From Hymenobacter cellulosivorans (GTDB taxonomy: Bacteria; Bacteroidota; Bacteroidia; Cytophagales; Hymenobacteraceae), in the NCBI RefSeq assembly GCF_022919135.1, contig NZ_CP095049.1, forward strand, positions 4,592,501-4,656,500: a stretch of DNA of 64,000 nt, in the 5' to 3' direction. The notes beneath the pieces are model-generated. The model saw nothing but the letters and a program-made list of their open reading frames with translations, was not told the origin of the DNA and searched no databases. Positions 3,598 through 57,212 of the stretch are shown here, in pieces. The translations under genes and the position numbers were made by a program. Each line of letters opens with the position of its first letter. The stretch's first letter is position 1.

Positions 3598-4293
3598 ATG
3601 GAATTCAGTCGCCCCGTATTCTACCAGCTGCGCGACCTAGCGGTTCTCCTTCGTGGAAGCCGTACGCACTTGCGTTATTCCCACTCGGAGTTGGAGCTTT
3701 CCTACGAGTATCATACCGAGCAAGAGTTGGGCCCGGGCCTGCACTGGATGGTGCTGCTAATCGGTACCGGCGCAGTAGTAGCGCTTACTTATAACGCACT
3801 GATTTACTTTAAGCAACCGGTTTGGCTCTGGAGCATCCTGGTTGTTCTACTGTGGGTTGGGCAGTCCTTCCTACCTCCTTCTCCGGCGCCTGTGCTGGCG
3901 GCATACGCGGGCGAAATTCGTCTGCACTATACGGCTGGGGAGGCATCCTGCTACTTTTCCCCAATCAAGCTGACCGACCAAACGCCCCTACCCATCGGGG
4001 CTGAGTTGGCTCTTCCTACTGTTCAGAGCATTCGGGTGCGGATGCTTCCAAACAGTGATTCGGATCAACCCAGCTACGGGCTCGTTGAAGTGCAGCTGAC
4101 GCAGCCCGGGCCCTGGCTTCTTTTTGCGCAACTTCCAACGGCCCAGGCCGCTAATCAAGCTGCCACCCTTCTGCGCGACCTGACTGGGATTCCCGCACTA
4201 ACCAACATGAACCCACCATCAGCCTCGGGCATTATTTTCCTTCGCTATCTGGGTCGTCAGTATTACAAGCTTTCCCATGGTAAACTTCGTTGA
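3598..4293 (+). CDS. Hypothetical protein with two membrane helices
   Basis: I do not recognise this 231-residue protein. It has a soluble N-terminus of about 45 residues, two adjacent hydrophobic segments (about 48-70 and 74-93), and a soluble C-terminal domain of about 135 residues with many beta-prone stretches. This arrangement of two helices followed by a globular domain resembles small PH-like (YcxB-type) membrane proteins, but I see no diagnostic motif. Its last 17 bp overlap the start of the following amidohydrolase gene, so the two may be translationally coupled. Confidence 0.65.
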   Translation: MEFSRPVFYQLRDLAVLLRGSRTHLRYSHSELELSYEYHTEQELGPGLHWMVLLIGTGAVVALTYNALIYFKQPVWLWSILVVLLWVGQSFLPPSPAPVLAAYAGEIRLHYTAGEASCYFSPIKLTDQTPLPIGAELALPTVQSIRVRMLPNSDSDQPSYGLVEVQLTQPGPWLLFAQLPTAQAANQAATLLRDLTGIPALTNMNPPSASGIIFLRYLGRQYYKLSHGKLR

Positions 4294-5569
4294 CGCACTC
4301 CGCCGGAGTTCGGTCGGGCTCGTTCTGCTCGTTTCCGCTACGATAAACGCCCCGGCGCAATCTACTCCGCCAACTCCGCTCTTGCTGCGCCCCGCCGCCG
4401 TTTTCGACGGCGAAACGATGCACCCGGGCTGGGTGGTGTTGGTGGAAGGCTCCACAATCAAAGCCGCCGGCCCGGCCGCCCAAATTAGTGCCCCGGCCGG
4501 CGCCCGCACCGTGGACTTGCCGGGCCAAACCCTGCTGCCGGGCCTGATTGAGGGCCACTCCCACCTGCTGCTCCACCCCTACAACGAAACCACCTGGAAC
4601 GACCAAGTGCTGCTTGAGTCGCAGGCGCTGCGGGTGGCGCGGGCCACGGCCCATGCCCGCGCCACGCTGCTGGCCGGTTACACCACCGCCCGCGACCTGG
4701 GTACCGAAGGCGCCGACTACGCCGACGTGGGCCTTAAACAGGCTATTGACCAGGGCTTTATTCCCGGACCCCGCCTGCTGATTGCTACCCGGGCCCTGGT
4801 GGCCACCGGCAGCTACGGCCCCAAGCTTTCCGTGGACGTGGAAGTACCCCAGGGTGCCCAGGAAGCCGACGGCACCGACGGCATCGTGCGAGCCGTGCGC
4901 GAGCAAATCGGCAAAGGTGCCGACATCATCAAGGTGTACGCCGACTACCGCTGGGGCAAGGGCGAACCGTCTCGGCCCACTTTTTCGCAGGAAGAGCTGA
5001 CCTTGATTGTGCAAACCGCTAAAGGCGCCGGCCGGCCCGTAGTAGCCCACGCCTCCACGCCCGAGGGCATGCGCCGGGCTACGCTGGCTGGCGTCGAAAC
5101 CATTGAGCACGGCGACGGAGGTACGGCGGAAGTATTCAAGCTCATGAAGCAGCGCGGCGTGGCCCTCTGCCCCACCGTGGCCGCCGGCGACGCTATTTCC
5201 CAGTACCAGGGCTGGAAAAAAGGCCAGGGGCCGGAGCCCGACCGGATTCAGCAAAAACGGCTGAGCGTGCAGGCCGCCCGCAAAAGTGGCGTGACGCTGG
5301 CCGTAGGTGGCGACGTAGGCGTGTTCCGCCACGGTGAAAACAGCCGCGAGGCCGAGCTGCTGGTACAGGAATACGGCTTCAGCCCCCTGGAAGTAGTACA
5401 GGCCCAAACCAGCGGCAACGCCCGTATCTTCCACCTCCTCGACCGGGGCCGCATCCTGCCCGGCCTGCTCGCCGACCTGGTAGCTGTGGAAGGCGACCCA
5501 ACCCAGCAGATTACGGCCCTACGCCAAGTGCGGCTGGTCGTGAAAGGCGGCGTGGTATACAAAGAGTAG
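4277..5569 (+). CDS. Secreted metal-dependent amidohydrolase
   Basis: This 430-residue protein belongs to the amidohydrolase superfamily, imidazolonepropionase/prolidase-like branch. It has a signal peptide (hydrophobic residues about 11-27, then APAQS), the metal motif GHSH with His94 and His96, a carboxylated-Lys candidate in IIKVYADYR, later histidines in VVAHAS and TIEHGDGG, and the catalytic Asp region LAVGGDVGV. The C-terminal ILPGLLADLVAVEGDP is the small beta-domain typical of the family. Such enzymes hydrolyse cyclic amides or Xaa-Pro dipeptides; the substrate here is unknown. A periplasmic location is inferred from the signal peptide. It converges on the glycosyltransferase gene with only 2 bp between the stops. 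Confidence 0.87.
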   Translation: MVNFVDALRRSSVGLVLLVSATINAPAQSTPPTPLLLRPAAVFDGETMHPGWVVLVEGSTIKAAGPAAQISAPAGARTVDLPGQTLLPGLIEGHSHLLLHPYNETTWNDQVLLESQALRVARATAHARATLLAGYTTARDLGTEGADYADVGLKQAIDQGFIPGPRLLIATRALVATGSYGPKLSVDVEVPQGAQEADGTDGIVRAVREQIGKGADIIKVYADYRWGKGEPSRPTFSQEELTLIVQTAKGAGRPVVAHASTPEGMRRATLAGVETIEHGDGGTAEVFKLMKQRGVALCPTVAAGDAISQYQGWKKGQGPEPDRIQQKRLSVQAARKSGVTLAVGGDVGVFRHGENSREAELLVQEYGFSPLEVVQAQTSGNARIFHLLDRGRILPGLLADLVAVEGDPTQQITALRQVRLVVKGGVVYKE

Positions 5570-51959: not shown

Positions 51960-52106
51960 ACGGCGCGGAAAAGTCAGACAATCAGCTCAACTATACGGCC
52001 CGGTTAGACATTCCGCCGACTTTTTGTTTGGTCTGAGCGGCCCTGTTGACCCGAAATTGGAAACGGGACCGTAGCCCATTTCGCCCATTCGCACCCGAAT
52101 CACTCG

Positions 52107-52114
52107 TACCTTGC
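52107..52114 (+). promoter_or_regulatory. -7-like promoter box TACCTTGC before the broken flavoprotein
   Basis: This box is a near match to TAnnTTTG and ends 6 nt before the ATG at 52121. Confidence 0.5.
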
Positions 52115-52120
52115 GGCCGC

Positions 52121-53364
52121 ATGGCACCTACTTCCTCAGCGCCTTTTATTGCCGTAGTCGGCGGCGGACCGGCGGGCCTGCTGGCCGCCCAGCGCCTGGC
52201 CGAAGCCGGCCACCGGGTCACGGTTTTCGAAGCTCAGCCCACCGTGGGCCGCAAGTTTCTGGTGGCCGGGCACGGGGGCTTCAACCTGACCAACGCCGAG
52301 CCGTTGCCGGCCTTTACCCAACGCTACGGCGCCCGACAAACCGATTTCGGCCGCTTCCTGAGCCACTTCACCCCCACCGACCTGCGCCAGTGGCTCGGCA
52401 GCCTAGGCATCGACACCTTCGTAGGCACCAGTGGCCGGGTTTTTCCTGTCGAGGCCCACAAGCCGGCCCAGGTGCTGCGGGCCTGGCTCCAGCACTTGCA
52501 AACGCTGGGCGTACAGCTGCGGGTGCGCCACCGCTGGCTGGGCTTCACGCCCGAGCGCGCCCTGCTTTTGCGCGACGAAGCCAGCGGGCAGGAGTTCAGC
52601 GTGCAGCCCGCTGCCACGGTACTGGCTTTAGGAGGAGCCAGTTGGGCCAAGACCGGTTCGGACGGGCAATGGACCAGCCTGCTCAGCTCCTGGGGCGTGG
52701 CGCTGGAGCCCTTCGCGCCCTCCAACTGCGGGGCCGAAGTAGCTTGGTCGGAGTTTTTTCGAACGAAAGTAGGCCGCGCCCCGCTCAAGAATATTGCCCT
52801 CGAATGCGGCGGCCAGACGGTGCGCGGCGAGCTGCTGCTAACTGATTACGGCGTGGAAGGCACCCCGGTGTACGCCCTGACGCCGCCGCTGCGCGCGGCC
52901 CTGCAAGCTTCGGAACCAGCCCGGCTCTATCTGAATCTGAAGCCCGACCTGACGGCCGAACAGCTCCGGCACAAGCTGCTGGCCCCCGCAACGGCAAGTC
53001 CGTGGCCGTTTACCTGGAAAAAGCCCTGCGCCTGGGCCCGCCCGTCCCGACGCTGCTGCGGGAGCTGGCCCCAGCTGAGGCGGGGGCCTCGGCGGATGCG
53101 TTGGCGGCGCTGTTGCAGCGGCTGCCCATTCCCGTCACGGGGTTGCGGCCCTTGGACGAAGCCATTTCCACGGCTGGAGGTGTGGCCTGGCCGGAAGTTG
53201 ATGAAAATCTGATGCTGCGGCGGCTGCCGGGCGTATTCTTGGCCGGCGAAATGCTGGATTGGGAAGCGCCCACCGGCGGCTACTTATTGCAGGGCTGCCT
53301 GAGCACCGGCGCCTGGGTAGCGCACGGCGTTCAGCACTGGCTCGGCAGCGGCCAGCCAACGTAA
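52121..53364 (+). pseudogene. BaiN/TIGR03862-type flavoprotein, frameshifted
   Basis: The intact part (52121 to about 52985) has the FAD motif VVGGGPAGLLAA and the family signature VAGHGGFNLTNAE. After LRHKLLAP the frame breaks at a run of five C (52983-52987). Restoring one C gives [27 protein letters not shown] and then the C-terminal FAD signature [20 protein letters not shown] up to the stop at 53364. Joined, the product would be 414 residues, the normal family length. The lesion is therefore one lost base, either real or a sequencing error. A related intact gene lies at 11525. Confidence 0.8.
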
Positions 53365-53383: not shown

Positions 53384-53650
53384 CTAGTCCTCGTCCGGGA
53401 TTTCGACGCCCCGGGCGCGGGCGTCGGCTTTGGCCAGAATGGCTTTGGCTTCGGCCAGTAGTTGCTCGCCCCGGTCCATTTCCTTGCGGTAAAGCAGGGC
53501 AAACAGAATGAAGAAGGACACAATCGGCAGCACGCACCCCAGGGTAAACCAGAGCCAGAACGAGCGGCCGTAGCTGTAGGCGCAGTAGCCCGTGGTGAGC
53601 GGCAGAAAGGACAGGGCGCAGACAAGAGCCAGCAGTATATCAATAAACAT
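53384..53650 (-). CDS. Small hypothetical membrane protein
   Basis: This 88-residue protein has two hydrophobic helices (MFIDILLALVCALSFLPL and FWLWFTLGCVLPIVSFFILFALL) followed by a charged coiled tail (KEMDRGEQLLAEAKAILAKA). No family is recognised. It converges on the frameshifted flavoprotein gene. Confidence 0.62.
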   Translation of the reverse strand: MFIDILLALVCALSFLPLTTGYCAYSYGRSFWLWFTLGCVLPIVSFFILFALLYRKEMDRGEQLLAEAKAILAKADARARGVEIPDED

Positions 53651-53894: not shown

Positions 53895-55352
53895 ATGCCC
53901 ATGTGGGACCATCAAAGCCTATTCCGTGTCACGGCGCAACTCTTCGCCGACGGCATTTTCAACCTGCTCGACCGCAACTTAAAACCCGAAGTTTTTCTGC
54001 TTGGCCTGGCTTCTGCCCGCGAAACGGATGAGCCCCAGGCCGTTGTAATTGAGCCTGCCACCCACCGCTACTCGCCCGCCGACTTTGCCGAGGTAAAAGC
54101 CCAGGCCGCTGCCCTCGAACCCGACGGGCCCCGCGACATGGTGTATCACCTGTACTCTACCGACCAGGACCGCTACGAAAAGCTGCGCTGGTATGATTTG
54201 ATGCGTCGCTCGGCCCTGAACATCCTCACCGACCTGAGCGAACTGCGGGGGGAAGACCGAATCAGCTTTTGCTCCCTGCCTGTAAGTTTGCACGGCTACC
54301 TCGTGGTCGTGGTGCTACAGCTGTCCAGCGAAGCCTACCACAGCTATTACTCCTTGCCGGTGCAGCAGCGCGGGGCTCGCTCGCCTTCGCTGCTCAACGC
54401 AGCCGTATACGAGTTTCTGCAGGATTGCTCCCGGGCTCTGCGCGAGTCGGATACGGATGAGGACCGGCCCGTGCTCGACCGGGACTACAATGAGGTGCTG
54501 CGCGCCGCCGGCCGCCGGTTTATGCTGCGTGCCGCCGCCGGTAGCCACGGCCTCTACGATGCCTGCAACGGCGTGGCCGCCCTGCGCCACGAGGGCGACG
54601 AAGGCGTGGGCACTATGCTCGTAGCCCGCCGCCACCACCCGGCCGTGGTGCCGGTCCTGACCCTGGAAACCCCGATTCCGCTGCGTGACCACCGCTCCAT
54701 CCGCAAGCTACTGGAACTCAGCGAAGGCCGCACCTCCCTGATTACCGACGCCTCCGACGTCTTTGGCCTAGGCCACGTGGTGGAGCCCAGCGACCCGCAC
54801 TACGAGCCCCTGTTTACGGTGCACTTCACCAAGCACTACAGCTGGGAGCTTAGTCACGCCGGGCACGTGATGATGAAGGTGGTGTCGAATACGCCCCGCC
54901 TGCCCCAGGGCCGCGTCGATGCCGACAACTTTGCCCGGGCCGTGGAGCGGGTCTTTCCCCAAGTGGATGAGCCCGGCATTGCCTACCTCTGGGAACTGAC
55001 CCAAAACGCTACCAAGCAAACCAACGGCACCATCCTGGTCATTTCCGAGGGCGCGGCCCAGGAGGCGGTGCGCCTTACCCGGCAGTGCTTCCGCGTGACG
55101 CCCCGCATCATGACGCCCTCGGTTTTGCGCCTGGTAACCAACATTGACGGGGCCGTCTTCATCGACCCCACCGGCGTGTGCTACGCCATCGGGGCCATCC
55201 TCGACGGCTTGGCCACCGAAAAAGGCGACTCCTCCCGCGGCTCCCGCTACAATTCGGCCGTGCGCTACGTGGAAAGCAGCCGCTACCCTTGCCTGGCCAT
55301 CGTCGTCAGCGAAGACGGCCTGATTGACTTGCTGCCCCCACTGAAACGGTAG
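53895..55352 (+). CDS. Diadenylate-cyclase (DAC/DisA_N) domain protein, altered RHR motif
   Basis: This 485-residue protein has a C-terminal DAC domain (about 375-485): the metal-binding DGA motif at 418-420 (NIDGAVFIDPTGVCYAIGAIL) and a final AIVVSEDGLIDLL strand. The second hallmark, normally G-(T/A)-RHR-(A/T)-A, reads GSRYNSAV at 449-456, so RHR becomes RYN. Canonical members make c-di-AMP from two ATP; the Arg residues of RHR hold the triphosphate, so activity or substrate may differ. Residues 1-370 have no domain I can name and may be a sensor. No membrane helix is seen. ATG 53895 and ATG 53901 are both possible starts. Confidence 0.82.
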   Translation: MPMWDHQSLFRVTAQLFADGIFNLLDRNLKPEVFLLGLASARETDEPQAVVIEPATHRYSPADFAEVKAQAAALEPDGPRDMVYHLYSTDQDRYEKLRWYDLMRRSALNILTDLSELRGEDRISFCSLPVSLHGYLVVVVLQLSSEAYHSYYSLPVQQRGARSPSLLNAAVYEFLQDCSRALRESDTDEDRPVLDRDYNEVLRAAGRRFMLRAAAGSHGLYDACNGVAALRHEGDEGVGTMLVARRHHPAVVPVLTLETPIPLRDHRSIRKLLELSEGRTSLITDASDVFGLGHVVEPSDPHYEPLFTVHFTKHYSWELSHAGHVMMKVVSNTPRLPQGRVDADNFARAVERVFPQVDEPGIAYLWELTQNATKQTNGTILVISEGAAQEAVRLTRQCFRVTPRIMTPSVLRLVTNIDGAVFIDPTGVCYAIGAILDGLATEKGDSSRGSRYNSAVRYVESSRYPCLAIVVSEDGLIDLLPPLKR

Positions 55353-56565: not shown

Positions 56566-56696
56566 GTAGTGTGTGGTTGTGGTGAAATAGGTTCGAGCAG
56601 GTATAACCTACGAGCCGCCGATTTGATTGGCTACGTAACAACACTGGTTTCGCCATTTTGGCGGGTTGTGCGTTAAAGGCAGAAACCCTTCCGACT

Positions 56697-57212
56697 ATGG
56701 CTACCCCGACCCGCCCGACGATTCCGACTTCTTCCGCCACCTTCGACCAGGACGAGCGGCTGCGCTGGGTGGAGCGCGTGGCTCATCTGCTCGACAGTCA
56801 GTTTAAGCTTCCGGGCACCAACTTCCGCTTCGGCCTGGACCCCATCCTGGGCCTGTTGCCGGTGGTGGGTGGGCTGCCAACCTTAGCCGTATCGGGGGTG
56901 CTGGTAATGACCATGATGCGGCACGGAGCCAGCGGGGCGCTAGTGGTGCGCATGGTGCTCAACATTCTGCTTGACACCATCATAGGCGCCATTCCCATCC
57001 TGGGCAACATCTTCGACTTCGCCTACAAAAGCAATGACCGAAACGTGGCTTTGCTGCGGGCCCACTACGCCGAGGGCAAGCACCAGGGCAGTGGCCGAGG
57101 CCTGCTTACGGTAGTGCTCATCGGCTTTTTCATCTTCCTGGCGGCTCTGATCTGGGGCCTCTGGACGCTAACGGCCTGGTTCTGGCAGTACGGTAGCCAA
57201 AACTGGTGGTAA
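56697..57212 (+). CDS. DUF4112 family membrane protein
   Basis: This 171-residue protein matches DUF4112: RVAHLLDSQFKLPGTNFRFGLDPILGLLPVVGG near the N-terminus, a central hydrophobic region (VVRMVLNILLDTIIGAIPILGNIFDFAYKSN), and a last helix (VVLIGFFIFLAALIWGLWTL). The role of this family is unknown. The ATG at 56697 was preferred because the family domain begins about 20 residues later. It is divergent from the aldo/keto reductase gene. Confidence 0.88.
   Translation: MATPTRPTIPTSSATFDQDERLRWVERVAHLLDSQFKLPGTNFRFGLDPILGLLPVVGGLPTLAVSGVLVMTMMRHGASGALVVRMVLNILLDTIIGAIPILGNIFDFAYKSNDRNVALLRAHYAEGKHQGSGRGLLTVVLIGFFIFLAALIWGLWTLTAWFWQYGSQNWW

Follow-up and report, generated by a model that had tools for sequence, protein, structure and literature searches.

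The question raised by this locus is what a protein of the diadenylate cyclase (DAC) fold does once one of the two motifs of its class has been replaced. In the usual description, DACs form a single class of enzymes that have one main product and carry two motifs, DGA and RHR. The window analysed here, a stretch of 64,000 nucleotides from the genome of Hymenobacter cellulosivorans (one contig, 6.1 Mb), encodes a DAC-domain protein, hereafter copy A, in which RYN stands at the place of RHR.

Domain layout of copy A

A sequence-only reading of the window had placed an open reading frame at 53895-55352 on the plus strand, and this frame was confirmed; its start codon is probably the second ATG, as most of the orthologues examined have ATG only at that position (53901). 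The same reading saw about 370 N-terminal residues without a recognisable domain, which has to be revised, given that DACNG and DACNH match Pfam there (Table 1), both preceding the DAC domain as in the DACNG-DACNH-DAC family. Its proposal that the N-terminus acts as a sensor is in line with Pfam, where these domains are catalogued as 'probable sensor', and stays a prediction. Beyond the three domains, none scored above the Pfam cut-off in copy A. Membership of the DAC fold family is indicated by the PF02457 match, which passes its cut-off, and by fold matches to DisA and CdaA. With regard to the canonical motifs, DGA is intact (IDGA at residues 417-420) and RHR is absent, residues 447-456 reading SRGSRYNSAV; the GSRYNSAV that had been noted in place of the RHR motif is thus found at residues 449-456. 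The closest named relatives, among the best 80 of 428, are Hymenobacter species with up to 95% protein identity.

Table 1. Positions in the window of copy A, its domains and motifs, and two neighbouring genes.
Feature	Position	Strand	Basis or remark
88-aa protein gene	53384..53650	-	Divergent neighbour of copy A; looks like a membrane protein by eye, no Pfam model passes its cut-off
CDS of copy A (DACNG-DACNH-DAC protein)	53895..55352	+	Single open frame, 485 aa
DACNG domain, residues 3-210	53901..54524	+	Pfam PF21752, 240.8 bits, cut-off 27
DACNH domain, residues 218-322	54546..54860	+	Pfam PF21750, 115.5 bits, cut-off 27
DAC domain, residues 370-475	55002..55319	+	Pfam PF02457, 35.9 bits, cut-off 27; weak match
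DGA motif, residues 418-420	55146..55154	+	Read from sequence
L436-D437-G438	55200..55208	+	Opposite Leu-Pro of the CdaA adenine-binding loop, by alignment
R448, invariant Arg	55236..55238	+	M, L, F or V in canonical CdaA loci
RYN motif, residues 451-453	55245..55253	+	Opposite RHR; codons read, alignment with canonical CdaA cores
DUF4112 gene (PF13430)	56658..57212	+	Downstream of copy A, same strand

Comparison of the motif with canonical and other accessory DACs

When copy A is aligned with the DAC cores of 29 canonical CdaA proteins of its genus and order, RYN falls opposite RHR, with the first Arg retained and the His and the second Arg lost, as the sequence-only reading had held. This mapping rests on hhalign, the multiple alignment and the Pfam match together, the hhalign comparison of the family with canonical DACs having E-values of 0.011 and 0.0014 at low reported probabilities (1.8% and 17.4%). 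The 29 cores had been selected by their RHR; 30 canonical CdaA loci were then examined without that requirement, and RHR was found in 29 and RHK in one, from another genus of the order (L188). A canonical CdaA with GLRHRAA is encoded elsewhere in the same genome as copy A. Some Hymenobacter also carry a third accessory architecture, DACNV-DAC (PF21751, a label tested on all four genes, L201-L204), and in 4/4 of those read the motif is GTRHRAA. Loss of RHR is therefore not a general trait of accessory DACs.

For the single residues, the CdaA numbering was anchored on D171GA and R203HR of Bacillus subtilis (PMC8573169) and on Tyr187-Leu188 of Listeria (PMC10167629). In the published structural work, adenine is bound by the backbone of Leu188 in Listeria CdaA (PMC10167629, PMC11066881); in Staphylococcus aureus DacA, the ribose is touched by the Asp and Gly of the HDG motif and the phosphates by the Thr that precedes RHR (PMC6368335). 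By alignment, Leu188 corresponds to L436, the Pro following it to D437 and the Thr to S450, the last position being S or A across the family. At the position of R448, none of the 30 canonical loci has an Arg. Judged from these alignments, the RYN family retains the predicted ribose contacts and one Arg, and loses the His and the other Arg.

Conservation of RYN across the family

The family set comprised 165 ORFs with 119 distinct DAC cores and covers 80 A orthologues, 20 genes of a second copy (copy B, see below), repeats, additional copies that other searches supplied, and members at a greater distance. The latter come from two genomes of the genus g190, one other Bacteroidota genome, E. coli DS-2, two viral contigs and, borne on plasmids, Dyadobacter, Gluconobacter, Citrobacter, Phycisphaera and Priestia, so that the members span Bacteroidota, Pseudomonadota, Planctomycetota and Bacillota besides the viral contigs. 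R451 and N453 are kept in 119/119 distinct cores, with Y (104), F (14) or L (1) between them; D437 and R448 are likewise each present in all 119, and DG is invariant, as DGA in 115 and DGT in four. The signature derived from this set, R-[YFL]-N with IDG[AT], is thus found in copy A and in every distinct core (119/119). A 34-sequence alignment of the family adds an invariant L436 and, as family-specific invariants, D437-G438, R448, N453 and R457-Y458. One further Priestia plasmid copy, the third (L205), read after the count, has IDGA and GRGARFNSA. At D418, D437, R448, R451 and N453, all codon variation among the 80 A orthologues is synonymous (e.g., AAC in 62 and AAT in 18 for N453; GAC in 68 and GAT in 12 for D437), and therefore purifying selection maintains the rebuilt motif.

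The contig scan behind the 80 A loci is biased toward RYN, one of its two search patterns containing R[YF]N, and the best 80 of its 428 relatives are without exception A copies of Hymenobacter or near relatives. No such pattern entered the protein, tblastn and DACNH-profile searches, and the members read from them are all R-x-N; the plasmid records read gave 7/7 and the loci found via the DACNH profile 9/9. For one more plasmid record (Rhizobium), the match was confined to the C-terminal end of the DS-2 DAC, and the motif counts leave it out. The Pfam DAC profile itself misses some members, namely the DS-2 DAC, the Phycisphaera protein and that of viral contig L150. The sequence-only reading had taken conservation of RYN in close relatives as the sign of a real subfamily, and homologues with RHR in sister species as the case against it; RYN is conserved in close relatives and across phyla, and none of the family members read carries RHR. 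That the protein stands by itself, as had been implied, does not agree with the databases, since both Pfam and NCBIfam already model the family. The deviation noted is real and meaningful, but RYN characterises a whole catalogued family rather than a single protein, and the N-terminus, too, is covered by catalogued domains.

Copies A and B in Hymenobacter

Elsewhere on the same chromosome lies a second DACNG-DACNH-DAC gene, copy B, with 40% identity to copy A and the motif TRGARYNSA. Both copies are present in 37/37 same-genus genomes (own included), with fragmented copies in four of them (A in G005; B in G010, G021 and G033), and 0/22 genomes from elsewhere in the order gave a match. A family-level search matched 127 of 200 genomes: 116 from the genus of copy A, counting its own genome, with at least two matches apiece, eight of g193 with two each, two of g190 with one each and one of g194 with a weak match. 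The misses listed for this search include no genome of the genus (73 of 200 genomes miss, 53 of them outside the list). Within the phylum, the DACNH match was found in 5/395 genomes, these being the own genome, three of the same genus and one other. In a tree of 36 sequences, the A sequences group with the single g190 gene (support 97/95), and the B sequences form a clade of their own (100/100), standing beside the DS-2 group with an unsure placement (80/86).

No SMODS CD-NTase match was found in the own genome, and 21/101 same-genus genomes have one, by a profile that scores the DS-2 CD-NTase itself at 24.5 bits, just below its cut-off of 26.5. Using the DS-2 CD-NTase as query, a search without positive control gave 0/36 genomes. 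As far as these searches reach, A and B both persist without a CBASS partner.

The gene order next to copy A (HI0933-like gene, 88-aa protein gene, DAC gene) is conserved. Across 80 A loci, the 88-aa gene is kept in 79 (the single miss is a 3.6-kb contig), the HI0933-like gene in 77, a putative antiporter in 61, a CLC gene in 57, an aldo/keto reductase (AKR) in 51 and the DUF4112 gene, downstream and on the same strand, in 45. In the window, Pfam assigned the neighbours to CLC with CBS, HI0933-like (split), aldo/keto reductase, DUF4112 and M14 peptidase, with two further neighbours having no match over the cut-off, and no CD-NTase or effector gene adjoins copy A. In g190, DUF4112 lies directly upstream of the DAC gene on the same strand (9705-10181 in L161; 10041-10517 in L162), and the DUF4112 protein is a possible functional partner of copy A. 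In 20/20 loci, a TonB-C-domain gene precedes copy B on its strand (e.g., 3775-4629 and 4745-6298 in L033), and the two possibly form an operon. Both copies, which we take to be ancient, show core-gene behaviour and conserved locations in Hymenobacter and one genus close to it, and in Hymenobacter they look like permanent housekeeping genes.

Two side observations concern the neighbours. A frameshift near 53000, real or a sequencing error, divides the HI0933-like flavoprotein gene (52046-53364) in two: an orthologue aligns to it in two frames and both pieces match the HI0933 profile, and in L068 and other loci the gene is one open frame. Near copy A, the segment 48777-51959 holds the CLC channel with CBS domains and the putative antiporter, which was assigned by eye and matches no Pfam model. 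As c-di-AMP commonly acts on ion transport, a regulatory link between copy A and these genes is possible.

Relatives linked to phage defence

PMC13092281 describes DS-2 as a CBASS-like anti-phage system of E. coli with three genes, for a phospholipase, a cGAS-like enzyme and, as the third, a DAC. Mutating two predicted catalytic residues of the DAC eliminated defence in each case; 15/30 homologues of this DAC are stated there to adjoin a CBASS. The motif of the E. coli protein is SRGSRYNSG. The NCBIfam family named after DS-2, NF053872, scores it at 818.8 bits with a cut-off of 630, and copy A at 459.3 bits, below that cut-off; a DS-2 equivalog label for copy A was consequently rejected. The three-gene stretch from Citrobacter was matched in 20/5,426 E. 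coli genomes, with coverage of 80% or more of its length in 18.

Among the family members, three adjoin CBASS genes with a patatin effector (L063, L065 and L148), one with a Cap15-like 2TM effector (L149) and one with a 4TM effector (L066). A constant DAC with changing effectors suggests that the DAC serves the signal side of CBASS. The Priestia copy L205 sits among restriction-modification genes, with a gene two places away partly matching nuclease effectors. No CD-NTase is named among the annotated genes near the Phycisphaera (L064), Dyadobacter (L062) and another Priestia (L067) member, and PADLOC gave no CBASS match on five neighbours of L062 and L067 (none from L064). PADLOC assigned no family to the window protein, the DS-2 DAC or L160, and the phage records searched gave no match.

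Three contigs deserve a separate mention. In the viral collection, L149 (766-4076) carries a family member together with a CD-NTase, the Cap15-like effector and recombinase-like genes (by eye), and L150 (5161-7758) has weak TPR-like matches, below cut-off, behind the DAC. In L148 (7234-9812), a second CBASS with phospholipase, DncV and an E2-like gene is annotated directly downstream of the E. coli DS-2 genes.

Predicted structure

The full-length model of copy A (pLDDT 84.1, pTM 0.74) gave 20 matches at E < 0.001 in a PDB fold search, all of them DACs (DisA, CdaA/DacA and DacM; best E 5.5e-5), and no match at E 0.001 in a viral structure library. Residues 438-448 are modelled below pLDDT 50, and the model does not let the pocket be judged.

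In this model, the order of helices and strands of DACNH resembles a DAC without the RHR helix, an idea that predates the fold search. With DACNH modelled alone (pLDDT 87.9), the first three places among 350,542 PDB chains went to DacM and CdaA, at non-significant E-values of 0.2-0.5, with rmsd 5.7-8.7 and TM-scores normalised to the query of 0.37-0.52. In profile comparisons, DACNH scored 13.9 against the DAC part and 10.6 against canonical DACs, no better than reversed or column-shuffled controls (8.6-16.3 and 10.3-16.2, respectively), and the DAC part scored 26.2 against canonical DACs. A DACNH profile search of the PDB sequences found no DAC. The models suggest that DACNH may be a degenerate DAC fold lacking the RHR helix, which the sequence comparisons do not support.

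Functional interpretation

In our reading, copy A is a variant nucleotide cyclase that was domesticated in Hymenobacter, is maintained by selection and has a regulatory N-terminus. That it is an active 'RYN-type' DAC, whose rebuilt pocket is kept by selection and whose presumed cyclase activity is gated by the N-terminus, is the explanation that we prefer, with belief and doubt about evenly balanced. DACNG and DACNH would sense an unspecified cue and gate the C-terminal DAC, and two subunits, A-A or A-B, would pair head to head and link two nucleotides to form a cyclic dinucleotide. Within the site, D418-G419 would bind the ribose, R448, R451 and N453 may handle the phosphates, with R448 taking the place of the lost Arg, and D437 may read the base. 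As co-occurring paralogues, A and B could form a mixed head-to-head dimer; the single match per genome in g190 suggests that such a dimer is unnecessary everywhere. The conserved pocket and the loss of defence in the DS-2 DAC mutants (PMC13092281) argue that the site is used, and neither of them shows the product. Counting against an active cyclase, conservation would look alike for a mere binding site, and the Thr before RHR, a phosphate contact in S. aureus DacA (PMC6368335), is S or A in the RYN family.

The main rival reading makes copy A an inactive receptor, whose RYN pocket binds c-di-AMP from CdaA, or another dinucleotide, and whose DACNG and DACNH relay the signal. With the His and second Arg gone, losing two of the three residues could mean no catalysis, as the exchange of RHR for AAA is reported to abolish activity in CdaS (PMC4568413) and, together with ATP binding, in Mycobacterium tuberculosis DisA (PMC3328451). 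The canonical CdaA of the own genome makes c-di-AMP probably available as a ligand. We nevertheless consider such a receptor somewhat unlikely, since DGA is retained with its Asp and the DS-2 DAC requires its predicted catalytic residues, though a binder could require them too. It is distinctly unlikely, on the other hand, that copy A is an ordinary c-di-AMP cyclase which tolerates RYN and differs from CdaA in its regulator. The DAC fold, D418-G419 and R451 are all retained, and the adenine-binding Leu of Listeria CdaA (PMC10167629) is matched by the invariant L436; but RHR in 29/30 canonical loci (RHK in the remaining one) and in 4/4 DACNV-DACs indicates that RYN is not free drift, and the Pro after this Leu is replaced by an invariant Asp.

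Common family membership with DS-2 (459 bits to NF053872) and the CBASS genes beside other relatives could also point to a stand-alone anti-phage factor in Hymenobacter, working like DS-2 without CBASS genes. This we regard as very improbable: unlike patchy defence genes, the copies are genus-wide and syntenic, copy A falls short of the NF053872 cut-off and is without the DS-2 C-terminal extension, and the own genome has no SMODS match, by the profile that places the DS-2 CD-NTase just below its cut-off. The frameshift in the neighbouring HI0933-like gene might raise the suspicion of strain-specific degeneration or of a sequencing artefact. This idea retains practically no weight and was rejected on account of R-[YFL]-N in all members read, the synonymous-only codon change and the intact frame.

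Going beyond the preferred reading of a variant cyclase, RYN-type DACs might be a distinct class with a product other than c-di-AMP (e.g., a guanine-containing dinucleotide, D437 reading the base beside L436), with DACNH as a built-in regulator derived from a degenerate DAC and, in Hymenobacter, an anti-phage module turned into a two-copy housekeeping signal system. We hold this extended scenario, as a whole, to be speculative and unlikely.

A search of the open-licence literature yielded no publication that deals with RYN in DACs, with DACNG or with c-di-AMP in Hymenobacter. What seems new is the presence of R-x-N in every member read across phyla, its sharing with a phage-defence DAC, and a two-copy, syntenic domestication without CBASS partner. 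A cross-phylum R-x-N family with one member needed for phage defence in E. coli makes the question of the product directly testable. For a large environmental genus the two copies amount to a core function, and Hymenobacter offers a setting in which a RYN-type DAC can be studied without CBASS partner or phage infection.

Comparison with known systems

Panoptes, like the CBASS-linked relatives described here, has a second nucleotide-making enzyme tied to CBASS, and it is a possible model for them. Its enzyme, however, is mCpol and not a DAC (PMC12657218), and for the Hymenobacter copies no CBASS link was found. The DS-2 DAC is closer: at ~31% identity, it has in common with copy A the DACNG-DACNH part followed by the DAC region, RYN, D437, R448, N453 and R457-Y458, and it differs by DGT, a C-terminal extension of ~85 residues and its CD-NTase and phospholipase neighbours. 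The DACNV-DAC proteins are, like copy A, accessory DACs with an N-terminus labelled 'probable sensor' by Pfam, but keep GTRHRAA in the four read. Finally, CdaA and DisA share with copy A the fold, DGA and the first Arg of RHR, and CdaA also the VSE[DE] strand, whereas copy A is set apart from both by RYN instead of RHR, LDG instead of LP in the base loop, the extra R448 and the N-terminal DACNG-DACNH.
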